From the NCBI RefSeq assembly GCF_000482245.1, contig NZ_AWNH01000066.1:1-64000 (forward strand): a DNA stretch of 64,000 bases, in the 5' to 3' direction. This DNA comes from Leptolyngbya sp. Heron Island J (GTDB taxonomy: Bacteria > Cyanobacteriota > Cyanobacteriia > Phormidesmidales > Phormidesmidaceae). The position numbers and the translations under genes are program-made. Each line of letters starts with the position of its first letter. The first letter of the stretch is position 1. This document shows positions 45,811 to 64,000 of this stretch, one piece after another. The notes under the pieces are model-generated. The model worked only from the letters and a program-made list of their open reading frames with translations. It did not search any database and was not told where the DNA came from.

Positions 45811-46924
45811 GCTTATGCAACAGGCGCAGTGGCCGAGCGAGATAGGACAGTCCCCAGTGGGAGAAATGGGGGGAAAGCCATGTGCGATCGCGGGAATTGG
45901 GAGTCAGGGCATAGCCAACAACATGGGTCAGCAGGCGCAAGTCGGTCCAGCTGGGCCGGTGGGGGTACTGACACAGTAGCAGAGCACGGAGGCAGGCTTG
46001 CTTGCTGCTGCTGATAGGGTTGGATTGCAAAAGGCTGAAGATGCCCTGGTGGGGGTCGCGCTCAGTGAAGAGTGTGGCAGCGACCTGATCAATATGGCGG
46101 TTAGCAATAGGGTCGCTATAGCTGGCGTGCTCCTCCTGTAGCGGTAAGGGCAAGGTGAGGGGAATAAAACGGTGGGTCAACTGTAGGGCACAGTGCACCA
46201 GACGGAGGTTATTACCGGCCAGGGTGAGCACCTGTTCTGGATCAAGTTTGGGCATCAGATCGGCCAGGTCACAAAATTGCGACAGACGCAGACGGTCAAA
46301 GTAACTGTCTTTAACAATTTGGACGCAAAGGATAAGAAAATGGTCTTCTGGACTGAGGGTAGGTAGGGTAGTTCCCAGGTAGGGCAGGGGACGACAGCGC
46401 TGGTGTAGGGCAGCAAGATCGAGCCGGTAGGAAAAGCAGGGCGGGGCGATTTGCCAGTGTAGGTCGATGCTGAATTGGCCGTTGGGGGCAGTGAAGTCGC
46501 TGCCCCAGGGAGTTCTGTCCCGCAGGCAGTAGCCCTGGGCCAGGAGAAGAGACTGGGCGGCCTCGGCATCTGTCGCATCGACCAGCAGGTCGAGGTCACA
46601 GTAGGTGCGGCGGGAGAGGTCACCGTGGAGGGTGAGGGCCAGGGTGGGGCCTTTGCAGGGGAGGACGAGGATATTGGCTTGGTGAAAAGTGGAAAAGAGA
46701 TGGGTGAGGGTTCTAGCAAGCTGCCAGTTGTAAACCGTGAGGGATTGGGCGGTTTGTTGTAGAGGGCATTGGAGGGAAGGAGGCAGGGTATGGTAGAGCC
46801 GAAGTAAGACGCCGTGGCGCTGTGACAGATGAAATAGGGCAGGCCATTGAGGTGACTCTAGTGCGGCACTAGTCACTGTTTGGTTGAGATAGGATAGCAG
46901 GTAGGTAATTTGTGGAGAGTGCAC
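45734..46924 (-). CDS. Nucleotidyltransferase-family protein (NTP_transf_5-type)
   Basis: 396 residues with a GTG start. LPCKGPTLALTLHGDLSRRT followed by YCDLDLLVDATD is the core of the family, with the DxD metal-binding pair in DLDLLV. Members occur next to lasso-peptide and exopolysaccharide genes; one (PsmN in the pseudomycoidin pathway) is known to glycosylate a phosphorylated lasso tail. It follows the cyclase gene 47015-48910 by 90 bases on the same strand. A similar tail-modifying role is inference. Confidence 0.8.
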   Translation of the reverse strand: MHSPQITYLLSYLNQTVTSAALESPQWPALFHLSQRHGVLLRLYHTLPPSLQCPLQQTAQSLTVYNWQLARTLTHLFSTFHQANILVLPCKGPTLALTLHGDLSRRTYCDLDLLVDATDAEAAQSLLLAQGYCLRDRTPWGSDFTAPNGQFSIDLHWQIAPPCFSYRLDLAALHQRCRPLPYLGTTLPTLSPEDHFLILCVQIVKDSYFDRLRLSQFCDLADLMPKLDPEQVLTLAGNNLRLVHCALQLTHRFIPLTLPLPLQEEHASYSDPIANRHIDQVAATLFTERDPHQGIFSLLQSNPISSSKQACLRALLLCQYPHRPSWTDLRLLTHVVGYALTPNSRDRTWLSPHFSHWGLSYLARPLRLLHKLIQMLMPRLYPSAHTPPPTPSSAEH

Positions 46925-46983
46925 GGGTAAGGGTTGCGTAAAGGGGTGACACTAGCAAGGCTTTGGTAACCAAATAAGACTTA

Positions 46984-47067
46984 AGACAGACCAAGACCAG
47001 GACCCATAACACCATCAAAGGCTACAGGAGTGAACATAACGGCAGTGTTCTCCTTGCGGAGCTGTGG
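46984..47067 (-). other. Candidate cryptic lasso precursor (core) overlapping the cyclase end
   Basis: In a frame different from the cyclase the minus strand reads PQLRKENTA followed by VMFTPVAFDGVMGPGLGLS and a stop. Features match a lasso core: Thr two residues before the core, Asp at core position 9, C-terminal Ser, 19 residues as in the cluster-2 core. Upstream in this frame a TGA stands where the leader pattern wants an aromatic residue (three residues before Pro), so the leader is broken or translation starts at TTG 47067 or ATG 47037 (AAGGAG 12 bases upstream). Hypothesis only. Confidence 0.3.
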
Positions 47068-48910: not shown

Positions 48911-49294
48911 GCTGCTGTGCGACCCTTAGTTAATAACAGAAATCATCAATAGACCTTCTTCCACTAGACCGTTCACCGGTGTCTGCATGTCCTGGTTAAA
49001 CTGTTCTACTAAGAATAGACACTGGCACCACAACCTACTGCATACGATTAAAAATGTCACATTAGACTATTTAACCAGACTATTAATTCAAAAAATCTGT
49101 TAGATTGAACTTTCTCTATTGACTGGTGCTAATGGTGTTGATTTTCTGCGTGAAAATACAGTGAGTGTACTGACAATATTTTTCTCGGATTCTTGGTAAA
49201 CCAACGGCTAAGGCTTAAGAGGACTACACTTACAAAAATCTTTCTGTTCTATGGGTAAACACTGTTGTTTTCTACGAGAAGGAAGGTTTGTTCA
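48911..49294. promoter_or_regulatory. Intergenic region upstream of cyclase 1 and the flippase
   Basis: A 384-base AT-rich gap between divergent genes, expected to hold two promoters. No recognisable gene, repeat or operator was found. Confidence 0.3.
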
Positions 49295-49360
49295 ATGTCA
49301 GCTGACGGTACTGTGGAGACTTTACTGGTCTTCAATGAAGCAAACTTAAATCTTAGTTAG
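49295..49360 (+). other. Short upstream ORF before the flippase gene
   Basis: MSADGTVETLLVFNEANLNL plus Ser, 21 codons, preceded by a strong AAGGAAGG ribosome-binding site and ending 9 bases before the flippase start. It could be a regulatory leader peptide or chance. Confidence 0.3.
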
Positions 49361-49369
49361 GATTGAGTC

Positions 49370-50752
49370 TTGCCCAAGCGTTTGTCCCTGTTTCCAAAAA
49401 TTGTTCAAATTCTGACTTCATCGGCCAGCGTCGTGGCGGGGGCAACTCTGGCCACCCGGCTGGCTGGTTTGATGCGAGAGCAGGTAAACGCAGCTGTTTT
49501 TGGGATTGGGCCGCTCTATGGAGCCTTCCAATATGCAGTTTTATTACCAAACCTGTTTCTAGTTGTTCTGGGGGGAATTAATGGCCCGTTGCACAGTGCC
49601 GTTTTGACTATTTTGGCGAACTATCCTCCGGAGAAGTCCAGGGCCATTGTTCGGGCGTTAACGGTGGTGATCGGTGGCGCAATGTTGGGGGTGACTGGCT
49701 TGCTAGTTTGGTTGGCTCCCCAGGGTATTGATCTGATCGCGCCGGGGCTGGCGGTGGGGGCGGGTGACGTCCGAGGCTTGGCAATTCGGCAGTTGCAAAT
49801 TATGGCTGTGACGGTGTGGTTCGGCAGCATGATCGGCCTCAACATTGGTCTGTTGACCTGGCATCGTAACTATTGGCTGCCAACGCTGAGTCCGCTGCTG
49901 TCGAGTTTGGCTGCGATCTCAGGCGCATTTTGGTTTAACCATGGGTTCCAACAACAGCTCAATAGCGCTGACCTAGCGAGCGGCCAGGTGCTGGCCTGGG
50001 CCTACTTAGCAGGGGCGGTGCTGCAGTGGGGAGTGCTGTGGCTGGGCCTGCGGGGGTACCCACTTAGTCATTCGTTGAGTGGGGCTTGGCGACATCTGAG
50101 CACGTGGTCAGAAATCCGAGTGGCGCTGCGTTTGATTGCCTCTAGCTGCTTATTTATGAGTGTTACCCGAGCAAACTGGTACATTGACTTGGCCTTTGCC
50201 TCATGGCTACCTGAGCCGGGGGCGGCGGCCAGTGCGCTAACGCTGGCGTTTCTAGTAGTGCAGGCCCCGGCAGGGATTTTTTCCAATGTGATGCTCGTAC
50301 CGCTGGTGCCAAACTTGGCGCAGGTGGCGAATGAGCCTGGGGAGCTATGGGAGGGATCTCAACGAGCTTTAAGTCTTATTCTCCGACTCGTTTTACCCAT
50401 GGGCGGGCTGATGGCACTGTTGGCCACCCCCATTGTGGCACTGACGTATCGGCGAGGGGCCTTTGACCCGGAAGCGACATTACTGGTGGGGCACGTACTA
50501 CGCTGCTATGGGTTGGGGCTGGGGGCGTACCTGAGCCGAGAACTGCTGGTCCGCGTCCTACATGTGCTCCGCGCCCATCGAGCATTAGGCTGGCTGAGCG
50601 CCTGGAGTCTGGGGTTAAACATTTTATTTAACGGTTTTCTATATCAATCCCTAGGCGTTGCGGGGCTGGCGCTGGGGAGCAGTGTGGTCGATGGGGTGTT
50701 GAGCCTTGGCATGTGGCTTTGGCTGCGGGAGCGATTGGTGTTGAAGCCCTGA
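49370..50752 (+). CDS. MurJ/MviN-like lipid-linked oligosaccharide flippase
   Basis: 460 residues, about 13 predicted membrane helices. TLATRLAGLMREQVNAAVFG and LPNLFLVVLGGINGPLHSAVL are the N-terminal MurJ landmarks. The start appears to be TTG with AGGA upstream; no suitable ATG is available. It is shorter than cyanobacterial MurJ (about 530), and its place beside exopolysaccharide genes suggests a Wzx-like role in flipping the lipid-linked repeat unit rather than lipid II (inference). Confidence 0.87.
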   Translation: MPKRLSLFPKIVQILTSSASVVAGATLATRLAGLMREQVNAAVFGIGPLYGAFQYAVLLPNLFLVVLGGINGPLHSAVLTILANYPPEKSRAIVRALTVVIGGAMLGVTGLLVWLAPQGIDLIAPGLAVGAGDVRGLAIRQLQIMAVTVWFGSMIGLNIGLLTWHRNYWLPTLSPLLSSLAAISGAFWFNHGFQQQLNSADLASGQVLAWAYLAGAVLQWGVLWLGLRGYPLSHSLSGAWRHLSTWSEIRVALRLIASSCLFMSVTRANWYIDLAFASWLPEPGAAASALTLAFLVVQAPAGIFSNVMLVPLVPNLAQVANEPGELWEGSQRALSLILRLVLPMGGLMALLATPIVALTYRRGAFDPEATLLVGHVLRCYGLGLGAYLSRELLVRVLHVLRAHRALGWLSAWSLGLNILFNGFLYQSLGVAGLALGSSVVDGVLSLGMWLWLRERLVLKP

Positions 50753-50809
50753 CAAGTTAACTTCCATGCCCCTGTGGGCTTGTACTTGAGAGCAAATATC
50801 CGTTTCTCT

Positions 50810-52633
50810 CTAACGATATTTTTCAGCTTGTATTTCAAACAACTGGAAATAAAGCCCTTGATTGTTCATCAGCTCAGCGTGGCTGCCACATTCAACGATT
50901 TTTCCCTGTTCCATTACATAAATACGGTCGGCCAGCCTCACAGTGGACATACGATGACTAATCAGAACAATCGCCTGGTGACGAGCTAAGCTTTTTAATT
51001 TTTGAAACACAGCATATTCTGCCTTGGGATCCATAGCGGCAGTGGGTTCATCTAAAACCATAATTTGTGAGTCTCGCAAAAAGGCTCGGGCTAAGGCAAT
51101 TTTTTGCCATTGGCCTATGCTTAGTTCTTCGCCTTGATCAAAGAGTTTGCCTAAAATAGTTTCATAGCCCTTAGGAAGCGTTTGAATAATTGACTCAGCA
51201 CCAGACTGACGAGCCGCAGATTCGATCCGTGTAACGTCATGGTGGTATTCAATATTGCCAAAGCTAATATTCTCGCGGGCTGTGAGATAGTACTTGGCAT
51301 AGTCTTGAAAAATAACGCTGATTTGTCGTCGCAGCTCGGAAATTGCGTAGTGTTTAATATTTTTACTCTCTAAGTAGATATCTCCTGATGTGGGATCGTA
51401 CAGCCGACAAAGTAGCTTAATCAGCGTCGTCTTCCCACATCCATTTTCACCGACTAGGGCAATGGTTTCACCTGGGGCAACCCTGAGGTTAATGTTGTGC
51501 AGAACCTGGCGTTGAGTGTTGGGATATTTAAAATTAACCTGCTCGAAAACAATGCCTTTCTGAAATGTGGTGGGCATTACTTGGGGCTGCTCAGGTTCCA
51601 GCACATGAGGTGTTAGTTCCAGAAATTCGAAGATATTTTTGAGGAATAGATTATTTTCATGGAGTTGCGCCAAACTATTAAAAAACTGTTTTAATGCGGT
51701 TTGCCCTCGCTGCATAGCTTGATAATAAAGAACTAAGTCACCAAAGGTAAATTCGTTGTTAAATGCTCGATAAATAATATAGCCATAGCTAACGAGTAAC
51801 AATACTCCACCAAAGAGTTGGGTGCTAAAGTTGTAGACAGCTTGCTTGGTTGCGATCGCTAATTTTTCTCGATAAATTTTAGTTTGTACTGTGCGATACC
51901 GACGTCTTAAAAATGAGCCTAAATTGAACAGGCGAATTTCTTTAGCAAACTTTGCCTCCGTCAGCAAATGACTCATATAAAAAGATTGGCGCTGCAAGGC
52001 TGTACGGCGACGTTGCCAGCGGTAAAAGACACGGGTATATTTCAGCCGAACCCACAAAGCAGGGAGGGAGGCAGCCACTAGAAGAGCGATAATCTGCCAA
52101 GAAATAGACAGCAAAAGTCCACTGAGGGCAGCTAGCAAAACAGCATTTTTGAAGACATTCGCCAGACTACTCAAAATTTGATTACAGCGAAAAGATGCTT
52201 CATTTTGAGCCCGTTGGAGCACATCATAATACTGAGGATTTTCGTAGTATGCCAAATCTACGGCAATGGATTTTGCATGGAGAATATCTTGCAGACTGTT
52301 GGTTACTTTTTCACCCTGTGCCGTGTTGACCAAGTCAGTGGTGCTTGTTAAGACAATATCAACAATGGCAATGCCCCCAAGTACTACTAACCATGGCATC
52401 AGGTGAGTATAGCTATGCCATGAATTGGGAAGGGCATGAGCTGTACTAAAGATAGCTCCAATATTGTCTACAATTACTTTACTGACATAGAAAAAGGTGG
52501 CAGGCAGCAGACCCTGAAACACTAGCAATAGAGAGCTTACACATGTCCACTGCGGTGCGCTTTGCCAAATAATTTTGATGGCAATAATAAGGTATATTCC
52601 TTGCGGAACAAGGGATCGAAGCCAACGCTGCAT
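50810..52633 (-). CDS. Lasso-peptide ABC exporter (McjD-like, D protein)
   Basis: 607 residues: six membrane helices (1-330) then ATPase domain with Walker A GENGCGKTT, signature LSIGQ (the usual second Gly is Ile), Walker B IMVLDEPTAAMD and H-loop ISHRMST. Family members export peptides, and the McjD-like ones give immunity to the lasso peptide. It lies at the left end of cluster 2, divergent from the B1 gene. It is the only exporter gene near the lasso genes seen here, so it may serve several peptides. Confidence 0.87.
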   Translation of the reverse strand: MQRWLRSLVPQGIYLIIAIKIIWQSAPQWTCVSSLLLVFQGLLPATFFYVSKVIVDNIGAIFSTAHALPNSWHSYTHLMPWLVVLGGIAIVDIVLTSTTDLVNTAQGEKVTNSLQDILHAKSIAVDLAYYENPQYYDVLQRAQNEASFRCNQILSSLANVFKNAVLLAALSGLLLSISWQIIALLVAASLPALWVRLKYTRVFYRWQRRRTALQRQSFYMSHLLTEAKFAKEIRLFNLGSFLRRRYRTVQTKIYREKLAIATKQAVYNFSTQLFGGVLLLVSYGYIIYRAFNNEFTFGDLVLYYQAMQRGQTALKQFFNSLAQLHENNLFLKNIFEFLELTPHVLEPEQPQVMPTTFQKGIVFEQVNFKYPNTQRQVLHNINLRVAPGETIALVGENGCGKTTLIKLLCRLYDPTSGDIYLESKNIKHYAISELRRQISVIFQDYAKYYLTARENISFGNIEYHHDVTRIESAARQSGAESIIQTLPKGYETILGKLFDQGEELSIGQWQKIALARAFLRDSQIMVLDEPTAAMDPKAEYAVFQKLKSLARHQAIVLISHRMSTVRLADRIYVMEQGKIVECGSHAELMNNQGLYFQLFEIQAEKYR

Positions 52634-52735
52634 CTCAGTTCCTGACTTGGGTTGGACTGTGTGACCTGAATAGTGCTCAGCGTACTCATTTAATACTATA
52701 AAAAGTGTTTTTGACAGTCTGGAAAATTATTCAGG

Positions 52736-52902
52736 CAACATTCGTATAATTACTGATGGCAACTCACACAATCGTTGAGATCCTCTTGTTGTAAGACCAT
52801 TGATTTAGTAGAGATTTTTGGCTTGCCGTAATCGGCCCCTAGTTTATCTGAAGTCTATCTGCAAAATCTAAATCTAAGATTCTAGTTTGTCACAGGAAAA
52901 GA
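52736..52902. repeat. Duplicated cluster upstream region, copy A
   Basis: Bases 52736-52902 (CAACATTCGTATAA ... GGAAAAG) match 60850-60917 plus 61148-61234 upstream of the kinase in cluster 3. Copy A is continuous; copy B is split by a 223-base insertion. Probably a promoter region carried along when the clusters duplicated. Confidence 0.8.
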
Positions 52903-52956
52903 ATGTGAATCAATTGCGCTCTTGAGTTTTCTCCAGACTATGGGTTCCAGATCCCG
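52903..52956 (+). pseudogene. Deletion scar of an HPr-kinase-like gene
   Basis: ATG at 52903 corresponds to the start of the cluster-3 kinase (61235), and 52915-52953 (TGCGCTCTTGAGTTTTCTCC and following) matches 61763-61801 inside that kinase, in the right frame (CALEFSP..GFQ). Everything between and after has been deleted, and the B1 gene follows. A TGA stands at codon 2. Confidence 0.75.
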
Positions 52957-52980
52957 ATTTCGTTCAACAATCCTAAAACT

Positions 52981-53268
52981 ATGATGCAATTTTCGTTAGA
53001 TCAAGGACTATCCGTGACCTCCCATGTGTTAGCTCAAGACTTAGCCGGAGAGTCTGTGTTGTTAAATATTCAAACTGAGGAATATTTTGGATTGGATGAT
53101 GTGGGAACTCATATGTGGCAAACCTTGATTGAGAAAGAGTCCATTGAAATGGCCATCGCCACCTTGCAAACTGAATATGATGTGGAGCCAACACTGCTAC
53201 AGCATGATGTGGAAACATTAATTGACGAATTATTAACCCATGGTTTAGTTGAACTGAGTGCTGCGTAG
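52981..53268 (+). CDS. PqqD-family lasso leader-recognition protein (B1), cluster 2
   Basis: 95 residues. ESVLLNIQTEEYFGLDDVGTHMW is the hallmark of PqqD-like RRE proteins, which form the winged-helix fold that binds the precursor leader and hands it to the B2 protease. It stands alone on the plus strand between the divergent exporter and the convergent P450. Its upstream region is copy A of the duplicated segment plus a kinase-gene scar, showing it once followed a kinase gene as in cluster 3. Confidence 0.9.
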   Translation: MMQFSLDQGLSVTSHVLAQDLAGESVLLNIQTEEYFGLDDVGTHMWQTLIEKESIEMAIATLQTEYDVEPTLLQHDVETLIDELLTHGLVELSAA

Positions 53269-53306
53269 CTTCCATGGCTACTTTATAATCATGCTGGCTC
53301 GATTGA

Positions 53307-54545
53307 TTAAAATGAGAGCGGTAATGATTTTAATCCCCGTCCCAGAAAAGACTCTTCCCAGTTGAAAGACTCTGGCGCTGTGGATACTAAGGATAACTTA
53401 GGCAAACGCTGCACTAGAATCCCTACGGTGATTTCCGCCACAAGTTTAGCCATATGTTTGCCGATACACAGGTGAATGCCTTGGCCAAAGGACAGGAAAG
53501 GATTGGGGCTGCGTTTAATGTCAAAGACGTCAGGTTCAGAAAATTTAGCCGGATCTCGATTAGCGGCAGCGATAATACAGTTCACCACTTGTCCCTGTGG
53601 AATCATGTGATTGTCAAGTTCAACATCCACCAGTGCTTGGCGTGAGACCCCCTGCACCGGACTGTCATAACGCAAGACTTCATTAATTGCCGTCCCCATT
53701 AAGGATGGTTCACTCTGGAGTAGCTGTAGCTGATGTGGATGTTGAAGTAAGGTGAGCATGCTTATGCCCAATAAATTTGCAGTGGAAGAGTGCCCAACGG
53801 TAAACATGAATATACAGGTTGAGAGCAGTTCTGTTTCACTTAACTGATGGTCGGCTACGGCTTGCATCAGGGTGGCAATTAAGTTGTCCTGGCCTTGAGG
53901 GATAGTGCGACATTGATCAAACCAACTTTGAAAGTAGTCAGCTAAACCTGCGATCGCTAACAGTCCCCGTTCTCTCGCCATGGGTGTCACATCCATATCT
54001 GCAATTACAGATAAATCTTCTGACCACTGCTTAAACTTGGGATGCCAAGCTTGGGGCGGAATGCCTAAGATTTTGCAGTTCAAACTGAGGGTGAGGGGAT
54101 AGGCGAGATCTGCAATCAGGTCCATCTGGCCTTGAGCTTGGACCTGATCAATCAGGGTATGGACTGTTGTTTGCAGATGCGATCGCAAGGCCTGAACCCG
54201 GACAGGCCGATAGGGATGATGTAAAAGAGAACGAATTCTGCTGTGATCGGGTGGGTTTCTCAGCACTAGCCATAGGCCCATCAGGTTTTGGCTTTCCTGT
54301 CGCAGTTTGAAGAATCGATGCAGAGGCCGTTGGCTGCTGATTTGTTGTACCGATGACTGGTGGTGTTCTGTACGACCAAACTTAGAACTTTTGAGAACGT
54401 CTGCAACATCAGCGTAGCGCGTCAGTAACCAGTCGTTATGGTCAGGCCGATAATAAATGGGATGATGGGTCTGCAGATAACGATAGGTAGGATAGGGGTT
54501 GGCCCGAAACTCTGGCAATCGAGGGTCAAAAGGTAGACAGTCCAT
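53307..54545 (-). CDS. Cytochrome P450
   Basis: 412 residues. Heme-binding motif [10 protein letters not shown] with ligand Cys360, K-helix ExxR in NEVLRYDSP, and I-helix [13 protein letters not shown], where the usual acid-Thr pair is replaced by HSST. Soluble bacterial class (CYP107/CYP110-like length). It is last in the cyclase - precursor - kinase - methyltransferase - P450 run of cluster 2, 38 bases after the methyltransferase, so it may hydroxylate or otherwise oxidise the lasso peptide; no such reaction can be assigned from sequence. Requires ferredoxin partners encoded elsewhere. Confidence 0.92.
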
Positions 54546-54583
54546 TTCGGCTTTTTTTAGCAGCTAACGTTAAATGAAATACC

Positions 54584-55354
54584 TCAATTTGCCACGATGT
54601 CTATCAACGGGAAAGACTGACACCAACCTCTGGGCGATCGCAACGCAGTATCCACCAGGCCACGCAAAACACCAAGCTGTCCAGGGGGTTCAGAATCACC
54701 ATAGATTCGCTCAAAATTCTGTTGCCAAAGTAAGATCGTCCTTAGGGAGTAAACCCGTCGATTTTTTATAGATTGAATGGTCCAGCCTGCCGACTCCAAA
54801 TTGCGCACCAGTTCAGAAACAGTGCAAAGCACAATGGAGTTACCAAATGTTAAACGATCACCGCTATAACCATCTGCCGCACAGCTTTCTGACAAAATTA
54901 AGCGTGATCCACAGGAACGTAGACGATGTAGCAAGCTTAATTTGTCCTGAATATGGGAAATCATTTCAAGGCTAATTATCACATCATAATCGCCAGGAAT
55001 TTTCCCAGAATCTTGATCTAAATTCTGTTGCCATACATGTAAACCTAGGCTTTGGCAATAATTCACTTGGGCCGTACTACAGGTAATCCCAGTGACCGTG
55101 CATTCCCGTTCTGCAATTAATAGTTGGGCCGGACCACCCCAACCACAGCCAACATCTAAAACGTTTGAACCCGGGGGAATATGGGGATAATAATTTCTAA
55201 CCGTTTGTTTTAAGCCTGTTTCTAATGTTTCAGTACCTCGAAAATAGCCAAAATGATAATGTAAATCTTCACCAATAATCTGTTTCCAGGCCTGAACTGG
55301 TTCAGTTGAATAAAAACGATCTAAGTCCAAGACTACTCCAGTGTCCATGGTCAT
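54584..55354 (-). CDS. SAM-dependent methyltransferase
   Basis: 256 residues, class I fold. LHYHFGYFRGTETLETGLKQ precedes motif I VLDVGCGWGG (65-74); the pattern resembles the cyclopropane-synthase/tocopherol-methyltransferase branch. It follows the kinase gene by 32 bases in the cluster 2 operon. Likely a tailoring enzyme of the lasso product. It is not obviously of the StspM type known to methylate lasso C-termini, so the methylated site is open. Confidence 0.9.
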   Translation of the reverse strand: MTMDTGVVLDLDRFYSTEPVQAWKQIIGEDLHYHFGYFRGTETLETGLKQTVRNYYPHIPPGSNVLDVGCGWGGPAQLLIAERECTVTGITCSTAQVNYCQSLGLHVWQQNLDQDSGKIPGDYDVIISLEMISHIQDKLSLLHRLRSCGSRLILSESCAADGYSGDRLTFGNSIVLCTVSELVRNLESAGWTIQSIKNRRVYSLRTILLWQQNFERIYGDSEPPGQLGVLRGLVDTALRSPRGWCQSFPLIDIVAN

Positions 55355-55386
55355 TTAACAATTCCTGGGTTAATGGCATTGCAGCT

Positions 55387-56394
55387 CTAAACTGCACTCA
55401 GCCTCACATCTTCTACAATCGCATCACAGAGTTGAGGCAGTGCCTGCAAATTATGACTGCGTTTCACCTTTCGTACAGGTACATCCCTGACCACAGAACT
55501 CATCGCTGCAAACTCCCTAGCTTGCTGCTCGGCATCCGCGTTCATCAACTGGCCAGCCGATCGATGTCTCATCAGTAGCATCACAGCGGCAGCAGGGGAA
55601 ATGGGGTCGATTGTTGGCACTGCCGCTGTCAGCTGATCTTGATTCACGGTATCTAAGACATAAATAGCCGACAACGGTAGGGGATGAGGATAAAAGTTCC
55701 ATGCCGTTTGATTGAGCGCCGGAGAATCACTGGGAGTTAACTCAACAAAACGTTTCTCCGAAAAGCTAAAAACCCTTGTCAAATCAGCCTCTGATCCATA
55801 TACAGCCTGGATCGTTTCAGGCCATAGCCGTAGACGAGGATAGCCCGGATGGACATGCCAGGACTGGGATAAATTGTCCAGTACCGCCACATCGTCAGCC
55901 AGCATTGGGTAGCCTTGACTGACCAAGGCTGCTGCTGTAGTTGATTTTCCGGCTCCGGTGTCACCTACGATGGCAATGGCCTGTTTCCCCATGGCAACCA
56001 CACAAGCATGAAGACACAACCTACCTCGCAACCGCAACACACAAGCTAAAACGGGTCCCACTAAGAGGCCAGTAACTTCTTCTAGAACCGAGCGATCCCA
56101 GGTGGCTGAAATGTCAGTACCCAGAGCATCGATCTCAAAATTAAGCTGTCCATCGCCACGAAACCAAAGTTGGTAATAGGGTACATCGGCCTGGGTGACA
56201 ACCGTCAATCCCGACGACACAAACTCAACATCAGGAGACGGTATCTGGGATTTCTCTCCACCCATTAAGTCAACCTTGACATCAATGGGTAAATCAGGGC
56301 TAGCGGAGATGAGATTAGGCAAACATCGATTTACCTGGAGGGTCAGGCCATAAATCCTGTATGTTTTATTCTGCTTAGAAGCTTGTTGAGGCAC
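55387..56394 (-). CDS. HPr-kinase-like lasso tail kinase, cluster 2
   Basis: 335 residues with a GTG start. P-loop GDTGAGKST at 144-152, then LADDVAVLD with the catalytic-type Asp pair of HprK-like kinases. In other lasso clusters (paeninodin, ThcoK) proteins of this kind phosphorylate the C-terminal Ser of the precursor. The precursor gene lies 25 bases upstream and its core ends in Ser, which fits. It is related to, but clearly diverged from, the cluster-3 kinase at 61235-62206. Confidence 0.85.
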   Translation of the reverse strand: MPQQASKQNKTYRIYGLTLQVNRCLPNLISASPDLPIDVKVDLMGGEKSQIPSPDVEFVSSGLTVVTQADVPYYQLWFRGDGQLNFEIDALGTDISATWDRSVLEEVTGLLVGPVLACVLRLRGRLCLHACVVAMGKQAIAIVGDTGAGKSTTAAALVSQGYPMLADDVAVLDNLSQSWHVHPGYPRLRLWPETIQAVYGSEADLTRVFSFSEKRFVELTPSDSPALNQTAWNFYPHPLPLSAIYVLDTVNQDQLTAAVPTIDPISPAAAVMLLMRHRSAGQLMNADAEQQAREFAAMSSVVRDVPVRKVKRSHNLQALPQLCDAIVEDVRLSAV

Positions 56395-56419
56395 AGATAT
56401 AGACCGTTCAAAACGTCAG

Positions 56420-56578
56420 CTATGAAGCATATTGGAAAATTCCACTGCCACCGTCTGAACCCACAAATGTTGTGCTAGTCAGTGTAAGCTCACTCACTTT
56501 ACCTAATTTATCGAATTTAGGAGAATGGTATAGACGCTTGCCTGATTTTGGTGTCTTATTAGGAGTCGTTTGAGACAT
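56420..56578 (-). CDS. Lasso peptide precursor (A), cluster 2
   Basis: 52 residues starting MSQTTPNKTPKSGK, with AGGA 8 bases before the ATG; the longer open frame to 56674 overlaps the cyclase and is not the real start. Leader pattern Y17-x2-P20-x-F22-x3-G26-x5-T32-L33 matches the lariatin leader spacing exactly (17 residues from Tyr to the cleavage site, Thr at -2). Predicted core TSTTFVGSDGGSGIFQYAS, with a nine-residue ring from Thr1 to Asp9 and a C-terminal Ser as kinase target. An alternative cut before the second Thr pair would give a seven-residue ring; the leader spacing favours the first. Cyclase gene 70 bases upstream. Confidence 0.85.
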   Translation of the reverse strand: MSQTTPNKTPKSGKRLYHSPKFDKLGKVSELTLTSTTFVGSDGGSGIFQYAS

Positions 56579-56648
56579 GATAATCATCCTGTAGTATGGT
56601 ACTTGAGTGCCGTTATTCTTGACTGAAATGAAACTCAGCCTATGGATG

Positions 56649-58448
56649 CTATGAATGGCATAGCCAATAAGCAAGTTGTAAAACGCTTGATGCCTGATTA
56701 TAGCCCAGGGAAGTGAGAGTTTCAGGCTTTTGCAACGTTTGTAATAGTTGTTCTGACTTAATATAAGGTGTTAACGCAGTGGTATGAATTAATTCTGTCA
56801 TCCAGGGTTGGATGCCTCGCTGTTGCATCAACTTGTAATGGGGAGACTCACCTAAAGGGGTTTTAGGCCGCTGCCGCACAGAATCTGGCAATCGCCCCTG
56901 CATCGCTTCCCGTAACAAGAACTTACTTTGGAACCAGGGGACTGGTGGGACGGACAGTAAAAATAACACCAGGTGCAAATCGAAAAAGGGAAAGCGCGAT
57001 TTAACGGGGAAGCCGCTGAAGCCAGGGTCAGACCAGCCAAAAATGTTAGACCAAAGGGGTTCATCGGCCATCCCATAGCGTTCTAGTTGTCGTGATATCG
57101 TCAATTGTTCTTGCAATCTTGCGGCTAGGTCCGTTCGTTTAGCAAAATCTGGGTTAAACCAGCCAGGTAACACCATCGTTTGGTCTCTTCCAAGCCATCG
57201 ATTAAGGCGAGTTCGGAGGCGGAGCTTTGAGCGAAGTGTTCCCATACAGCCCAGGAGATTAGGAATAAAATACTGGTATTGTAGTAACTGAGATAGATTG
57301 ATGGGCACTGGATAAAGGGCGGGATCCCCGCCAAATCCTTGCAGTAAGACGCGACCATAGGTGGCTACCCGGCGAATAATCTCCACCTCTGCCACCTGGG
57401 TGGGAATTAGGAGAGGTTCAGGATAACGATAGTCTGGTTTCTCTGGGGGAGCTTGCTCAATAAAATCTTCTGCAATAAGGTATTCCAGGGGCAATCCAGC
57501 CTGTTGAGCAACCTGTGCCGCATAGGTCCCCTCATCTTCTTCGATCAAATGGTCGTAAACAATCGCGTAGGCCCGGAGGTCAACCTTAAAGCCACAAGTT
57601 GTTTTCAACAAACCATGGGCCGTGGCCGCAATACTGGTGGAGTCCATGCCGCCACTTAAATGGGTACCTACTTGACCGGTACGCAGCCGATCGGCCACAG
57701 ACCGGTCAAATAATTCTCGAAAGTGTTCGATATACTCCCGTGGGTCTTTATAGTGGAGTATTTCCACCTGTTCTGGCAACTGCCAGTACTGCTGGATACG
57801 CACCTTGCCTGCGGACCATATCAGGGTGTGAGCTGGGGGCAACCGTTGAATATCGGCAAAGGTGGTACTGCTGCGATCCATATTCATGCTGAACAACAGT
57901 AGGTCTGCGATCGCCTGCTCGTTCAAATAATCGGACACGTGCGAATGCAGCCGTAGGCAATTCAAATGGTTGCTGACAATGACACCGTTACCAACGGTGG
58001 CATAATAGAGCGGCACCACCCCAAACTGATCCCGCGCACAAAACAGACGCTGCCGGGGACCATCCCATAGGGCAAAGGCAAAATCTCCACTCAGTCTGTC
58101 TAAACAATTCTCTTGCCAAACCTGATAGGCCTGTAAAACCAGTTCAACATCGGCGGCCTCTGATTTTACCATGCACCCAGCCTGGCGGAGTTGATCGATT
58201 ACCCCCTGACGGCGATCGAGACGGATATCTCCAGTTAACCAAACCGTGCCATTTAAACTATGGGGTTGCCGTTCTTGCTCAGATTCCCAAGTGGTGCGCA
58301 ACAGGGCATGGCCAAGCCCCACATAACTTTCACTCCAGATATTCTGGGCATCTGGGCCGCGAAACACCATTAAATCTGTCATTTGCTGAAGCAAAGAACA
58401 GTCAAGGGGGTGACCCTCTCCATTGAGAATAGCAACAAAACCACTCAT
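56649..58448 (-). CDS. Lasso cyclase (asparagine synthetase-like C protein), cluster 2
   Basis: 599 residues. Starts MSGFVAILNGEG, so the glutaminase nucleophile Cys2 is replaced by Ser, as usual in lasso cyclases. FRGPDAQ, SGDFAFALWD and the PP-motif SGGMDSTS (265-272) are present. It adenylates the side chain of core Asp9 and joins it to the N-terminus. It is first gene of the five-gene minus-strand operon. It shares its upstream region (58540-58625) with the B2 gene. Confidence 0.92.
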   Translation of the reverse strand: MSGFVAILNGEGHPLDCSLLQQMTDLMVFRGPDAQNIWSESYVGLGHALLRTTWESEQERQPHSLNGTVWLTGDIRLDRRQGVIDQLRQAGCMVKSEAADVELVLQAYQVWQENCLDRLSGDFAFALWDGPRQRLFCARDQFGVVPLYYATVGNGVIVSNHLNCLRLHSHVSDYLNEQAIADLLLFSMNMDRSSTTFADIQRLPPAHTLIWSAGKVRIQQYWQLPEQVEILHYKDPREYIEHFRELFDRSVADRLRTGQVGTHLSGGMDSTSIAATAHGLLKTTCGFKVDLRAYAIVYDHLIEEDEGTYAAQVAQQAGLPLEYLIAEDFIEQAPPEKPDYRYPEPLLIPTQVAEVEIIRRVATYGRVLLQGFGGDPALYPVPINLSQLLQYQYFIPNLLGCMGTLRSKLRLRTRLNRWLGRDQTMVLPGWFNPDFAKRTDLAARLQEQLTISRQLERYGMADEPLWSNIFGWSDPGFSGFPVKSRFPFFDLHLVLFLLSVPPVPWFQSKFLLREAMQGRLPDSVRQRPKTPLGESPHYKLMQQRGIQPWMTELIHTTALTPYIKSEQLLQTLQKPETLTSLGYNQASSVLQLAYWLCHS

Positions 58449-58539
58449 AGTATTAGAAAAAGTTCAAAAATGTGAGCGGCTCACATGTGCTCTTAAAGCA
58501 AGGACTACAGTTTCTGGATTGTCCACGGTTACGATAATT

Positions 58540-58625
58540 ATGATTTTCGGTTTTTACGCATACTCAACAAAACAAACGAATGATAAGTGAAACATACTTG
58601 TAAAAACACTCGTAAAAACACATAA
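58540..58625. repeat. Duplicated upstream segment of cyclase 2 and B2
   Basis: CATACTCAACAAAACA and the flanking TTTTTAC and AAACACTCGTAAAAA blocks recur at 60697-60790 upstream of the B2 gene, in the same orientation. A shared promoter for co-expression of C and B2 is the simplest reading. The rest of the gap 58449-58869 shows nothing recognisable. Confidence 0.65.
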
Positions 58626-58869
58626 ATCACCGCAGTAAAGCAGGCATAGGCCCCTACGCAAAATTATGTACACCATGGGAGTTATTGAATCACCTAAAGG
58701 AAAGATTAACCCGATCTATCTGAAGACTAACTAGGGTTGCTGACCCATTATGGTGATCATAAAGACCTAACTGTTGAAGGTCTAACTCTATAGCGCTATC
58801 GTATTTATGGCTTAACGTTAGTTGCTAATCAGCCCATTTCCAGGTTAACGAGGGCATCAGCTAGTTAAC

Positions 58870-59991
58870 TTGCGCATAACACTCCTAAAACCGATGACGG
58901 CTGTATTTGCTGAATCCATTGACTTACTCTTACCCCAACTCTCCGCCGCATTATTGGAGCCAAACCAGGTGCCTGGGCTCAAAATCCTTGCCAGTCAGAT
59001 GGCCCCGATTTTACGGGGTGGATTTGAGTGTCGTCTAGGGGACAACTCACCCCAGGTGGACATTCAACAATGTGTCATATCTGGCAATGATGAACCAGCG
59101 CTATTGAAAAAATATCTTGCCGAGCCATCCTTGGCAATTAATCCGCTATGGAACCACATTCAGACCTTCCTCCATCACTGGTCGGATCCCGACTCCAGTC
59201 TTCATGACAGCATTCCAGAGATTTGGCTTGAGTTTGACAGTGATGTCTCAAACCCTCGGCTGTTGCCCTCGCTCTTCTTTGCTTTACCCACCCATCTTTC
59301 AGATCCATCCCAATCGTTTATGCAGGCCAGCCAAGTATTGGATAGTCTTCTGGGATCCACTTGGGTACCCTGGCAGGATTCGTTAAAACGTTGCTTTACG
59401 GCTTGTCCAGAAGGTACTTTCGTCAGCCATATTGGCGTCATGTTGTCCCGTTCTGTCGAGGCATTGCGGGTGAATGTCAAGCGCCTACAGCCGGAGCTGT
59501 TGGTCCCGTACTTACAACGGATAAAATGGCTAGGCCAAACCGATGAAATCGAGTCACTTATGACAAAACTAGCGACCCAAGTGGATCGGATCACGGTGTG
59601 CCTGGATGTGGGGCAACAGGTATATCCCAAGTTAGGCTTTGAATGTATTTTCCTAAAGCAGCCCCAGGATGAACCCGGTTGGGCCAATTTTTTAGATACC
59701 CTCGTTGATCAGGGATACTGTACGCCTGCCAAGCGACAAGCTTTTTTGCAATGGCCAGGACAAACCACCCCCATGACTATCCCCACCCATTGGCCGGGGG
59801 AGTTGATTAAGGCCTCATTATTGCGACCTCAGAACTGTTTTACTAGCCTGAGCCGCCGCGTCAGCCACATTAAGGTGGTCTATCATCCCCACTCTCCCTT
59901 GGAAGCAAAAGGATATTTATGGTTTGCCCACGAATGGCTCTCTCCACCCTCAGCAAGTAAGCCAAGCTCGATATCAGTGTCCATGGATTGA
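58870..59991 (+). CDS. Uncharacterised protein in the lasso cluster
   Basis: 373 residues, start TTG (an ATG eight codons in, 58894, is an alternative). I do not recognise a family with certainty. No signal peptide or membrane segment. Notable blocks: INPLWNHIQTFLHHWSDPDS, EIWLEFDSD, LLPSLFFALP, SHIGVMLSRSVEALRVNVKR, CLDVGQQVYPKLGFECIFLK and DQGYCTPAKRQAFLQWPG. The Leu/Trp-rich, Asp-poor sequence has no obvious catalytic motif. It lies on the plus strand between the divergent cyclase and convergent Nif11/B2 genes, inside cluster 2, so a role in the pathway is possible. Confidence 0.7.
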   Translation: MRITLLKPMTAVFAESIDLLLPQLSAALLEPNQVPGLKILASQMAPILRGGFECRLGDNSPQVDIQQCVISGNDEPALLKKYLAEPSLAINPLWNHIQTFLHHWSDPDSSLHDSIPEIWLEFDSDVSNPRLLPSLFFALPTHLSDPSQSFMQASQVLDSLLGSTWVPWQDSLKRCFTACPEGTFVSHIGVMLSRSVEALRVNVKRLQPELLVPYLQRIKWLGQTDEIESLMTKLATQVDRITVCLDVGQQVYPKLGFECIFLKQPQDEPGWANFLDTLVDQGYCTPAKRQAFLQWPGQTTPMTIPTHWPGELIKASLLRPQNCFTSLSRRVSHIKVVYHPHSPLEAKGYLWFAHEWLSPPSASKPSSISVSMD

Positions 59992-60010
59992 ACGCTTTGC
60001 CTGTTCATTT

Positions 60011-60220
60011 TCAGTAAGACTGATAATGAACCCAGCGCATCATCCAGTCATGTCTGTGCGCCTGTTGCAGTTCTTCCATCGTAAATTCAAAGCCATACAT
60101 AGCTCCGATATCCACCAACGCGGCTAACCCCACCTGTAGATCCGTCGATTCAAGCTGATGTTGAACTGTCTCATTGCTACGAACATGCTGAATAAATTGT
60201 AAGGCAGTTTGAATCGACAT
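60011..60220 (-). CDS. Nif11-family peptide
   Basis: 69 residues. MSIQTALQFIQHVRSNETVQ ... LAALVDIGAMYGFEFTMEEL is the Nif11 leader-type domain, found in RiPP precursors and stand-alone cyanobacterial proteins. The C-terminal HRHDWMMRWVHYQSY has no Gly-Gly cleavage site, so it is more like a stand-alone Nif11 protein than a processed precursor. It is 18 bases downstream of the B2 gene and probably co-transcribed with it. Role in the lasso pathway unknown. Confidence 0.8.
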   Translation of the reverse strand: MSIQTALQFIQHVRSNETVQHQLESTDLQVGLAALVDIGAMYGFEFTMEELQQAHRHDWMMRWVHYQSY

Positions 60221-60238
60221 CTTGTTTACTTAATTTAC

Positions 60239-60613
60239 TTACAAAGAAGAAATGTCAATGGGGCGATCAAACATGGCAAATTGCTTCCGCACATCCTGGC
60301 GATCGCCCAGGATAAAGTCTTGCCACTCTACCCAGGCATGGGCTTCAAATTTTTGGGTATCTTGTCGCACCCCAATGCGCAACTGGCCATCAATCCCTTG
60401 AGCTCGTAGTAAGCTCCATAATACTAATGATTTTTTTAAACAGTTAGCCCAAGGCTGACAGTATTTTGTCGCCAACTGCACCATCCGAGTTGTGGTAATA
60501 AGCCGGTGTGAATGATCAGGTGGCGGCGAAGCTGGGGTAGGGAACAGTTTTACTAAAATTGCTTGGGTGAACCTTAGCCCCCAGAATTTTAAGGATAGGG
60601 CCACTGACGGCAA
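60239..60613 (-). CDS. Lasso leader protease (transglutaminase-like B2), cluster 2
   Basis: At least 124 residues of the B2 family (Transglut_core3): NCLKKSLVLWSLL with the catalytic Cys, FEAHAWVEWQ with the His, and a following Asp (FILGDRQD). It cuts the leader after B1 delivers it. The first usable start is TTG 60613, but the reading frame is open to 60718 and the extra residues (RTLWSLDVESRWLLLQTFLL) match the N-terminal helix of the family. No ATG, GTG or TTG occurs there, so a CTG (60637) or ATT start, or loss of the start, must be considered. Confidence 0.85.
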   Translation of the reverse strand: MPSVALSLKFWGLRFTQAILVKLFPTPASPPPDHSHRLITTTRMVQLATKYCQPWANCLKKSLVLWSLLRAQGIDGQLRIGVRQDTQKFEAHAWVEWQDFILGDRQDVRKQFAMFDRPIDISSL

Positions 60614-60696
60614 GAGGAGAAAAGTCTGTAGTAACAGCCATCGGCTCTCGACATCTAAACTCCATAGCGTACGGAACTTACGAACTAACCTAGTTA

Positions 60697-61234: not shown

Positions 61235-62206
61235 ATGTGGATCGATTTAGAGACAAAAACCACTGAACAATCGAAGATACGTCTACACTATCCAAACAAT
61301 CATTTTCATCATTATTATGGATTTGGGTTGCATATCGTATCGGAATTCGAATGCCCCGAACTATCGCCCATTGCCGCCGCTCACTCAAGCCCCGATGTTG
61401 TCATCAGAGTTGGCCTTGTCCCTAGTATCTTAGAGGGACGTCAGCTTGATGATGGATTTAGTCAGGTTAAACCAGACGCGTATCTATTGCGTCTTGACAA
61501 TATCGCTAATTATCACGTCACCAATGGCTGCGAGATTGTGGTTCAGCCCCAGGCAAGCTGTTCGGATAGTCTTGTCCGGTTGTATTTGTTTTCCCAATGT
61601 ATTGGTGCATTACTCCATCAACGCCATCAGCTGATTCTCCATGCAAGTGCGATCGCAACTGACCAAGGTGCCTTAATTTTTATGGGACCATCTGGTTCTG
61701 GAAAATCAACCCTGGCAGCAGGCTTGATCGATACTGGGTATAAACTGTTGGCAGAAGACCTATGCGCTCTTGAGTTTTCTCCAGGCCGTGGGTTCCAGGT
61801 ATTGCCAGGCATGGCCCAGCTTAGATTATGGCATGACACCATCCAGCAGCTAGGACACAATAAAAAGCTAATGCAAAAGGTATGGCAAAAGGAAGATAAG
61901 TACTCGCGTTTATTACAAGATGAGCTGGCTTCGGTGCCCACCGCCCTGAAAATGATCTATTGGCTTAACCCAGCCGATGTTGAGACCGTGGAAATTACAC
62001 CACTATCACTGCCAGAGATGACAGCTGCCATTGTTAAGAATATCTTTCGAGGGGAGTACACCCAAGCGTTGGGCGTACAAAAACGGCTCTTTAGGCAGAC
62101 GGCTGAACTGATTCGTGCTGGCCAGATATGCCAGCTAACACGACCTAGGAATGGTTTTTCACTTATCAACCAGATCACACTATTGCAGAAAGTACATTCT
62201 CTTTAA
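61235..62206 (+). CDS. HPr-kinase-like lasso tail kinase, cluster 3
   Basis: 323 residues; ATG preceded by AAAGGAG. P-loop GPSGSGKST at 151-159 followed by LLAEDLCALEF, the acidic catalytic region. Expected to phosphorylate the C-terminal Ser of the cluster-3 core. First gene of kinase - precursor - B1 - B2 - cyclase, all on the plus strand. The same gene once stood in front of the cluster-2 B1 gene, as shown by the scar at 52903-52956. The MITE-like element lies about 90 bases upstream. Confidence 0.86.
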   Translation: MWIDLETKTTEQSKIRLHYPNNHFHHYYGFGLHIVSEFECPELSPIAAAHSSPDVVIRVGLVPSILEGRQLDDGFSQVKPDAYLLRLDNIANYHVTNGCEIVVQPQASCSDSLVRLYLFSQCIGALLHQRHQLILHASAIATDQGALIFMGPSGSGKSTLAAGLIDTGYKLLAEDLCALEFSPGRGFQVLPGMAQLRLWHDTIQQLGHNKKLMQKVWQKEDKYSRLLQDELASVPTALKMIYWLNPADVETVEITPLSLPEMTAAIVKNIFRGEYTQALGVQKRLFRQTAELIRAGQICQLTRPRNGFSLINQITLLQKVHSL

Positions 62207-62300
62207 AGGGCTTCTGAGTCTGCGGATAATCAATTTAAATTTGACCGTTAGACCTGGTTTAGACTAAGTTTTCTTTGTGAATTTGGGAAATATGAATTAG

Positions 62301-62322
62301 TAGCATCTCGAAAGGGATGCTA
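62301..62322 (+). promoter_or_regulatory. Stem-loop upstream of the cluster-3 precursor
   Basis: TAGCATC (62301-62307) and GATGCTA (62316-62322) form a 7-bp stem with an 8-base loop in the kinase-precursor gap, 45 bases before the precursor ATG. No T-run follows. It may be an mRNA-processing or stability element. Confidence 0.4.
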
Positions 62323-62367
62323 AACACCCTTGTGCAACATTAAAACCATTAACGAGGATTGAGCAGG

Positions 62368-62496
62368 ATGAAAAACGAAGCATCTACCCATAAAAAACAA
62401 TGGACAGCTCCCGAGCTAAAGAAAATTAGCGTTAAGGATACCAATAGCGGTCCTTTCATCCCTAACGTAGAAGCTGGTGCTTGTAGACCTTCATGA
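62368..62496 (+). CDS. Lasso peptide precursor (A), cluster 3
   Basis: 42 residues, MKNEASTHKKQ then W12-T-A-P15-E-L17-KKISVKD-T25-N26, with AGG just upstream of the ATG. The leader follows the aromatic-xxP-x-L pattern and has Thr two residues before the cut. Predicted core SGPFIPNVEAGACRPS (27-42): Ser1 to Glu9 gives a nine-residue ring and the tail ends in Ser, the likely kinase target. A single Cys lies in the tail, so no disulfide within the peptide is possible. Lies between the kinase and B1 genes. Confidence 0.8.
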   Translation: MKNEASTHKKQWTAPELKKISVKDTNSGPFIPNVEAGACRPS

Positions 62497-62606
62497 TATC
62501 TACTGAGTCAAAACAGCATCGATAGATTCTGAGAGAGATGGGTTGAAGATGAGGGCTTTATTTGCATAATCGAGATGCACTTCACACATGCCCCTGGGAG
62601 ACGTAA

Positions 62607-62888
62607 ATGCTTGAGCTGACAACTAAAATTGTGCAAAAAGAAGACCTCATCGCAGCTAACTTAGGCAACGAAGTGATGATGATGAGTCTGGAGACAGATA
62701 ATTACTTCGCGCTCGACTCTGTGGGGAGCGAGATCTGGCATTTAATACAGCACCCTGTAACAATTGCTGAGATTTGCGCCGCCTTGCAGGAACGTTATGC
62801 GGTATCAGCGGATACTTGTCTCGCTGATACACAAGCTTTTCTACAGCGGATGATCGATGAAAAAGTAGCCCATGTTGTTGAATCATAG
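62607..62888 (+). CDS. PqqD-family lasso leader-recognition protein (B1), cluster 3
   Basis: 93 residues. NEVMMMSLETDNYFALDSVG followed by SEIWHLI is the PqqD/RRE core; it parallels the cluster-2 B1 (VLLNIQTEEYFGLDDVGTHMW). It binds the precursor leader. The stop TAG shares its last base with the GTG start of the B2 gene, so the two are translationally coupled. Confidence 0.9.
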   Translation: MLELTTKIVQKEDLIAANLGNEVMMMSLETDNYFALDSVGSEIWHLIQHPVTIAEICAALQERYAVSADTCLADTQAFLQRMIDEKVAHVVES

Positions 62889-63358
62889 TGCACAGCAATA
62901 TAGATAGGGCTCTCCCAGGATGGCGCTATAGAGTAGGGCGCTACATTAACCTGCCGATGGCAACACAGTTCATGTTGTTGGAAGCAACTGTACTGCTGGC
63001 GTTGTCTCGCTGTGCGGTACTTGTTTTACCGTTGCGTCTTCTCGGATCTTGTCTTGGCCATCTGAATTGTGAAACGCCTAAAGTTTGCACGGGGTCTCAC
63101 CAGCTGATTGCCCAACAGATTGCCACAGCTATCACTATGGTAAGCCCTTACACGCCTTGGCGCAGTAACTGTTTGGCACAAGCTATCTCAGGAAAGCTCA
63201 TGCTGCGGATGCGTGGGATTTCCAGTACGCTCTATCTAGGACTCAGCAACGAAGGCACTCAGCTGGCGGCACACGCTTGGCTACGTGTTGGGGAGCAAAC
63301 GATTACGGGCGGGGCGATCGCTGCTCAATATCAGGTTGTTGCATTTTACGGAAAGTAG
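62888..63358 (+). CDS. Lasso leader protease (transglutaminase-like B2), cluster 3
   Basis: 156 residues with a GTG start. N-terminal helix region (MATQFMLLEATVLLALSRCA), then RSNCLAQAISGKLMLR with the catalytic Cys and QLAAHAWLRVGEQTI with the His, as in Transglut_core3 B2 proteins. Full-length for the family, unlike the cluster-2 copy. It lies 16 bases before the cyclase start. Confidence 0.9.
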   Translation: MHSNIDRALPGWRYRVGRYINLPMATQFMLLEATVLLALSRCAVLVLPLRLLGSCLGHLNCETPKVCTGSHQLIAQQIATAITMVSPYTPWRSNCLAQAISGKLMLRMRGISSTLYLGLSNEGTQLAAHAWLRVGEQTITGGAIAAQYQVVAFYGK

Positions 63359-63374
63359 ACACGGTAAGTAGACT

Positions 63375-64000
63375 ATGCGCGGCATTTTTGGGATTTTTCA
63401 CAAAAACGGCCAACCTGTCACCCCTGAAACATTGGGGGCCATGCGAGCCATCATAAAGCTGTGGGGGCCAACGGGCACTCGCACCCACTGCACTGAGGAG
63501 ATCGGAGAGGAGATCGGATTCGGTTATTCTCTTTGTGACCTAGACTCTACATCAAATCCTGAGCGTTTGCCGATTACCCATCCACAGGCTTTAGGACTGT
63601 TTATCATAGCCGATGCACGGATCGATAATCGGGAAGAATTATACGAGATATTGAAGATTCCCGTGAGTGAACGTCGCACACTCACTGATAGCCACTTAAT
63701 TCTATTAGGGTACGCGAAGTGGCAGAAAGCTTGCGTTGGGCAGCTAGTTGGGGCGTTTGCTTTTGTTATCTGGGATCAGCAACGCAAAGAATTGTTTTGC
63801 GGTCGGGATCATATGGGGCTGAGGCCATTTTTTTATTATGACGCTCCCGGCTGCTTTGTCTTTGCCTCAGATATCGAAGCTATGCTGGCCTGCTCCTCCG
63901 TGCCTCAAAAGTTGAACGAGCCGCTGCTAGCTGCGCATCTCCAAGAAGATACGTATTTTGCTGAGAAGCATCAGACATTTCATGCCAATATTTTCAAGCT
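63375..64000 (+). CDS. Lasso cyclase (asparagine synthetase-like C protein), cluster 3, cut by window end
   Basis: The first 208 residues of a third cyclase, open to the window edge. Starts MRGIFGIFHKNGQPVTPETL: residue 2 is Arg, not the glutaminase Cys. ADARIDNREELYEIL, GAFAFVIWDQQRKELFCGRD and HMGLRPFFYYD are the usual N-terminal-domain blocks. The synthetase domain with the PP-motif lies beyond the window. It closes the kinase-A-B1-B2-C operon. Confidence 0.9.
   Translation, partial: MRGIFGIFHKNGQPVTPETLGAMRAIIKLWGPTGTRTHCTEEIGEEIGFGYSLCDLDSTSNPERLPITHPQALGLFIIADARIDNREELYEILKIPVSERRTLTDSHLILLGYAKWQKACVGQLVGAFAFVIWDQQRKELFCGRDHMGLRPFFYYDAPGCFVFASDIEAMLACSSVPQKLNEPLLAAHLQEDTYFAEKHQTFHANIFK

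Follow-up and report, generated by a model that had tools for sequence, protein, structure and literature searches.

What product does the lasso operon at the right-hand end of this window encode, and what do the genes beyond its cyclase add? The window is the whole stretch of DNA analysed, positions 1–64,000 of a 68,419-bp contig from an 8.06-Mb cyanobacterial genome. An earlier note on it had described a kinase, a precursor, B1, B2 and a cyclase lying in one operon, whose product would have a Ser1–Glu9 ring and a free Cys in its tail. We found that this operon stands apart from ordinary lasso operons as a member of a small lasso family that crosses phyla and is distinguished by a dedicated GT41 glycosyltransferase together with an invariant Cys. 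On balance, we favour the view that the family makes glycosylated, and probably also phosphorylated, lasso peptides, with Cys13 as the likeliest sugar acceptor and the C-terminal Ser as the main alternative.

Gene content of the locus

The lasso cluster proved to be real, with its genes on one strand at the positions proposed and family scans backing each one (Table 1). An RRE protein (B1), a transglutaminase-like peptidase (B2) and an asparagine-synthetase-like cyclase (C), which together define a lasso gene cluster, were all present. B2 scored 90.5 bits against NF033537 (lasso_biosyn_B2; above the cut-off of 33) and B1 74.2 bits against NF033536 (lasso_PqqD_Bac; cut-off 80). The top NCBIfam match of the cyclase was lasso cyclase, at 430.7 bits and under its cut-off of 525. 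The kinase matched HprK_rel_A with an E-value of 3e-12, below the family cut-off, and HPr_kinase_C weakly.

Table 1. Features of the operon and of the neighbouring lasso cluster. Window and contig share one numbering; positions above 64,000 lie past the window end.
Feature	Position	Strand	Remarks
Kinase (K), HprK-like	61235..62206	+	323 aa; LHAS...GPSGSGKST...LAED
Precursor (A)	62368..62496	+	42 aa; leader MKNEASTHKKQWTAPELKKISVKDTN, core SGPFIPNVEAGACRPS
B1, RRE/PqqD-like leader-binding protein	62607..62888	+	93 aa; PqqD 67.9 bits
B2, leader peptidase	62888..63358	+	156 aa; SNC...AHAW; Transglut_core3 79.8 bits
C, lasso cyclase	63375..65291	+	638 aa; Asn_synthase 143.5 bits; SGGLDSS motif
GT41 glycosyltransferase	65270-66967	+	565 aa; PF13844
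NAD-dependent epimerase/dehydratase	66980-68005	+	341 aa; 174.8 bits
Neighbouring cluster, B2	60242-60613	-	
Neighbouring cluster, Nif11-type peptide	60014-60220	-	ends HRHDWMMRWVHYQSY
Neighbouring cluster, cyclase	56652-58448	-	
Neighbouring cluster, likely precursor	56420-56578	-	core STTFVGSDGGSGIFQYAS with an Asp8 ring and a Ser at the C-terminus
Neighbouring cluster, ABC transporter	50813-52633	-	nearest ABC exporter to the operon
Neighbouring cluster, cyclase	47018-48910	-	
Neighbouring cluster, NTP_transf_5	45737-46924	-	

The genes from kinase to cyclase probably form one operon, a reading drawn from shared strand, gene order and conservation rather than from transcripts. The kinase and precursor are 161 bp apart, and the precursor and B1 110 bp. 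A copy with 92–100% identity and the same gene order in Adonisia turfae CCMR0081 (G019) puts the arrangement beyond chance. The cyclase, which the window cuts, continues intact beyond it, so that the break in this gene named by the earlier note as a ground for refutation is not there. An exporter had been expected to the right of the window, but none was found there: GT41 and epimerase genes follow instead, before the contig runs out at 68419. GT41 begins within the last cyclase codons, overlapping the stop of that gene, and all seven reading frames are open. Since A. turfae has the same seven genes followed by unrelated ones, the cassette is K-A-B1-B2-C-GT41-epimerase, with no exporter of its own.

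Three lasso B2 loci occur in the source genome, the operon being one of them. The neighbouring cluster (window 45737-60643, minus strand except for 58870-59988) also holds an HprK-like kinase, a methyltransferase and a P450. The third cluster, on another contig (C84; L005 9514-17080), comprises B1, B2, C, a precursor (TKGSGAINIGDS...), a kinase, an ABC transporter and an NTP_transf_5-like gene.

The precursor and its kinase

The precursor length is counted from an ATG, with an upstream TTG start possible at 62359. Glu9 is the sole acidic residue of the 16-residue core, so a Ser1–Glu9 ring is the only sensible reading; the tail is then AGACRPS. We obtained five different cores: SGPFIPNVEAGACRPS (both Adonisia genomes), SGPLLPNPESGACSPPPVLPS, SGPFQPNAESGACQPVPS, GGPFQPNAESGACQPVPS (Roseofilum) and SGAMTPNSESGFCSPS (Thiosymbion), all matching [SG]G[PA]xxPNxE[AS]G[AF]C..S. 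The five homologous precursors share a leader motif Lys-Lys-x-Trp-x-x-Pro (WxxPxL), Thr at -2 and, in the core, G2, P6, N7, E9, G11, C13 and the C-terminal Ser. The Thr at -2 and the acidic residue at core positions 7–9 by which lasso precursors are recognized are thus T25 and E35 of the precursor, both invariant. This conservation supports the core boundary, the Ser1–Glu9 ring and the C-terminal Ser as previously proposed. The precursors of the source genome and A. turfae differ at three sites, all synonymous, and their cores are identical. Judging from these genes and motifs, the operon product is almost certainly a lasso peptide, predicted to be a threaded macrolactam.

The earlier note had taken the leader Trp for a departure from the usual Tyr. 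This does not hold, as WxxP is reported to be nearly invariant in paeninodin-like precursors (PMC13381572); the motif is present here (QWTAPEL) and in all five homologues. W-leader precursors found in this analysis all come from kinase-bearing clusters, and the combination of a WxxP leader, an HprK-type kinase and a C-terminal Ser matches the syntax published for paeninodin-like peptides. We call the precursor paeninodin-like rather than a member of that family because it scored 15.6–15.7 bits against NF033524, not reaching the cut-off of 27.

In paeninodin, the C-terminal Ser is phosphorylated by a kinase with a His-Lys-Asp-Asp motif (PMC9266682). The His, the P-loop Lys and the second Asp are conserved in the operon kinase. 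The first Asp of its DD pair, which we read as the Asp-Asp of the published motif, is Glu (LAED) in both Adonisia genomes and Asp (LADD) in the Roseofilum, Thiosymbion and Thiomargarita homologues. With Glu at this position, Ser16 of the Adonisia peptide might stay unphosphorylated and open to GT41.

The GT41 glycosyltransferase and the distribution of the cassette

Besides its GT41 domain (PF13844, 87.2 bits, cut-off 25, Pfam scan), the glycosyltransferase has a short TPR part. Its structure model (AlphaFold, 49 sequences; m085a01f0ba79) had a mean pLDDT of 91 and, as best PDB matches, human O-GlcNAc transferase (OGT), Thermobaculum O-GlcNAc transferase, SPINDLY and a Xanthomonas homologue (E ~1e-29 to 1e-26). 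The above-cut-off domain score and the OGT-like fold together place it in GT41. In a profile alignment with human OGT, K378 lines up with K842, H210 with H558, and Thr463 takes the place of H920 (human numbers counted from the alignment after subtracting a tag offset of 10). K378, a catalytic-type lysine, is invariant in 49 homologues. Among the closest solved relatives of the epimerase are UDP-glucose 4-epimerases as well as a GDP-sugar reductase; as their substrates are mixed, several nucleotide sugars are possible. Epimerase relatives also occur between B2 and the kinase in GT41-less cyanobacterial lasso clusters (L056 6148-7050, L057 6048-6866, L071 3503-4321).

We sought GT41 relatives in 386 genomes of the phylum and by a scan of GTDB contigs. 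They were detected in 112 of the 386 genomes. Most had ~44% identity or less, with lasso genes at none of their examined loci. The few above 50% all had lasso genes beside them: A. turfae, three Roseofilum (R. acuticapitatum BLCC-M154 (G276), G451 and G452), Ca. Thiomargarita nelsonii and the Ca. Thiosymbion ectosymbiont of Robbea, the gammaproteobacterial copies being ~56–62% identical. Among 195 and 43 genomes from the orders to which Thiosymbion and Thiomargarita respectively belong, no GT41-lasso loci were found besides their own, and relatives in the plasmid collection searched were all <60% identical. A phylogeny of 86 GT41s placed the seven lasso-linked enzymes together in a single group (support 100) that covers both Cyanobacteriota and Pseudomonadota. 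As this group spans two phyla, the tree points to transfer of the cassette between them. Seven positions set the lasso-linked GT41s apart from others, including S282 (otherwise Gly), T305-Y306 (otherwise His-Pro) and A461 (otherwise Ser).

The full cassette was found in two Adonisia genomes, which have nearly identical B1 and B2, and in Roseofilum, where the order B1-B2-C-GT41-epimerase is also kept. Ca. Thiomargarita retains K-B1-B2-C-GT41-epimerase; its precursor was not found at the locus or in a whole-genome search. In Ca. Thiosymbion the genes are split over two contigs, one with K-C-A and the other with GT41-epimerase-B1. Taken together, these genomic associations make it probable that the downstream GT41 modifies the operon's own peptide, the predicted reaction being sugar transfer.

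Several loci differ in detail. In Roseofilum BLCC-M154 the kinase (L050 14809-15715) is frameshifted, and the precursor gene is placed between those for the cyclase and GT41 instead of between kinase and B1. Beside this cassette (L050 15741-19210) lie homologues of genes at window positions 53310-55354 and 58870-60220: the Nif11 peptide (44% identity), the P450 (55%), the methyltransferase (51%) and a protein of 363–373 aa with no known function (50%). This gene set may form another peptide pathway, one with modification by the P450. The kinase of two Roseofilum is adjoined by genes for an ABC transporter and an NTP_transf_5 protein. The Thiomargarita copy (L089 3255-9968) has a kinase without its N-terminal part and an unrelated 203-aa ORF separating cyclase and GT41. 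Elsewhere (L028 5032-5319, 5876-8107), a TPR-GT41 of 40% identity lies beside a gene for a small peptide (MIISDLSYLENIAEEE...); this seems to be a further GT41-linked peptide family.

The site of the sugar

Of the residues to which a sugar could be attached, only three do not vary among the five cores: N7, C13 and the C-terminal Ser. The N-glucosyltransferase sequon is N-x-S/T; Asn7 is followed by x-E and was kept as an unlikely site of N-glycosylation.

The Cys of the tail, present as the earlier note had said, is probably not simply free, as it co-occurs with the dedicated GT41 and epimerase. Among 38 GT-free lasso precursors, counted by hand, Cys occurred in the core of nine, always as two residues, and a lone Cys in none. 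The nearest kinase-bearing relatives without GT41 (L029, L030, L033) have W-leaders and a C-terminal Ser and no Cys, so that this Ser is invariant in the five GT41-type and three related GT-free precursors. One of these relatives (L030 4318-5190, 7844-8293; core AGFLPGSVENPVYFPS) also holds two sulfotransferase-like frames, recognized by eye. Because GT41-less kinase relatives keep the Ser without the Cys, the pattern is suggestive of Cys tracking GT41 and the C-terminal Ser tracking the kinase; with only about three independent lineages carrying the cassette, this covariation is statistically not strong.

We therefore set out a possible order of events. B1 would bind and present the WxxP leader, B2 would cleave after KDTN, i.e., after Asn(-1), and C would close the ring between the amine of Ser1 and Glu9, with the tail left threaded. 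The kinase would be expected to phosphorylate Ser16, as PadeK does in paeninodin. GT41 would then add a sugar, in a nucleotide form supplied by the epimerase, most likely S-linked to Cys13. Such a sugar would add bulk to a tail whose only other large residue is Arg14, and export may run through the ABC transporter of the neighbouring cluster. Assignment of the sugar to Cys13 is tentative, with the chances slightly below even. Human OGT is also able to modify Cys, giving S-GlcNAc. This modification is treated in PMC8386111. Against Cys13, the best-studied GT41s use Ser/Thr or Asn as acceptors. Lasso sugars known so far sit on Ser (PMC9266682, PMC13352647). The fullest version is a conjecture with about one chance in three: in this family the C-terminal Ser would bear a phosphate and Cys13 an S-linked sugar placed by an OGT-like enzyme; the sugar would form part of a plug holding the short tail in its threaded state, and gene transfer would have carried the family between cyanobacteria and sulfur-oxidising gammaproteobacteria.

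The most serious rival, though a rather unlikely one, places the sugar on the C-terminal Ser or its phosphate and gives Cys13 another use (disulfide dimer, metal or redox contact, target binding). Ser and Thr are the usual GT41 acceptors, the C-terminal Ser is invariant in the five precursors, and the Adonisia kinase reads LAED, not LADD. There is precedent in the hexose on the phosphorylated C-terminal Ser of pseudomycoidin (PMC9266682), and Ser glycosylation is reported for a lasso peptide (PMC13352647). However, the Ser is equally conserved in GT41-less kinase clusters and Cys13 is not, so this reading leaves the conservation of the Cys unexplained; moreover, the separate NTP_transf_5 (PF14907) gene beside the cluster in two Roseofilum could itself be a pseudomycoidin-type glycosylator of phospho-Ser.

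It is improbable that the product is a plain paeninodin-like phosphorylated peptide with a free Cys, next to a GT41 and epimerase that serve a cell-surface glycan pathway. GT41-type genes are indeed common in cyanobacteria, and polysaccharide loci often house paeninodin clusters (PMC13381572). Yet the lasso-linked GT41s are a single clade found only with the cassette in two phyla, with S282, T305, Y306 and A461 at otherwise conserved positions; the overlap with the cyclase also speaks against it, as do the genes after the epimerase in A. turfae, which are unrelated and not glycan genes. That the locus is a decaying relic without a product is very hard to credit: relatives are damaged (the BLCC-M154 kinase, the truncated Thiomargarita kinase and missing precursor), but here seven frames are open, changes in the Adonisia precursor are all synonymous, and B1 and B2 have hardly diverged.

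A glycosylated peptide of the kind we favour would join a small company, as few glycosylated lasso peptides are known and this sugar-decorated kind appears undescribed in the literature searched, which also yielded no account of GT41 in the making of lasso peptides. Were Cys the acceptor, thioglycosides and lasso knots, chemistries separate until now, would be joined, and a small enzyme able to attach a stable S-linked sugar to a peptide would be at hand. With so few invariant candidates, the acceptor is directly testable by three point mutants. A cassette common to mat-forming cyanobacteria and sulfur bacteria hints at an ecological exchange worth following.

Comparison with known systems

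A Roseofilum lasso cluster from Siderastrea corals is possibly the same cassette, having a 98-aa RRE, B2, a 633-aa cyclase and ABC genes; the available text of that report gives no precursor, kinase or glycosyltransferase (PMC9967302). With paeninodin-like systems (PadeA/PadeK, ThcoK, pba) the operon family shares discrete B1 and B2, an HprK-like kinase, the WxxP leader, Thr at -2 and the C-terminal Ser. Unlike them, it has Ser/Gly at position 1, Glu9, the conserved Cys13, and GT41 and epimerase genes, and its hosts are cyanobacterial and gammaproteobacterial.

Pseudomycoidin, on whose phosphorylated Ser hexoses are added by a nucleotidyltransferase-type protein (PMC9266682), likewise combines a kinase (PsmK) with a sugar-adding enzyme (PsmN), the latter activity being predicted here. 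PsmN differs in being nucleotidyltransferase-type, not GT41, and a conserved Cys is not reported. No gene of that type is present in the operon; NTP_transf_5 genes (PF14907), the family to which PsmN may belong, lie in the neighbouring cluster and beside the Roseofilum G451 cassette. A sugar-adding enzyme also acts on the Ser-glycosylated lasso peptide for which PMC13352647 cites Sun et al. 2025.

Glycocins such as sublancin, bacteriocins with an S-linked sugar on Cys, are likewise bacterial peptides with Cys as the sugar carrier, as proposed here. They differ in having two disulfides and no lasso machinery; the source core, with its one Cys, lacks the two disulfides that mark the helix-loop-helix glycocins. 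Glycocins use GT2-type enzymes. The operon enzyme resembles O-GlcNAc transferase and SPINDLY in its TPR and GT41 domains, its modelled fold and the conserved Lys and His that line up with K842 and H558 of human OGT, and differs from them in its very short TPR part, its own clade and Thr463 at the position of human H920.
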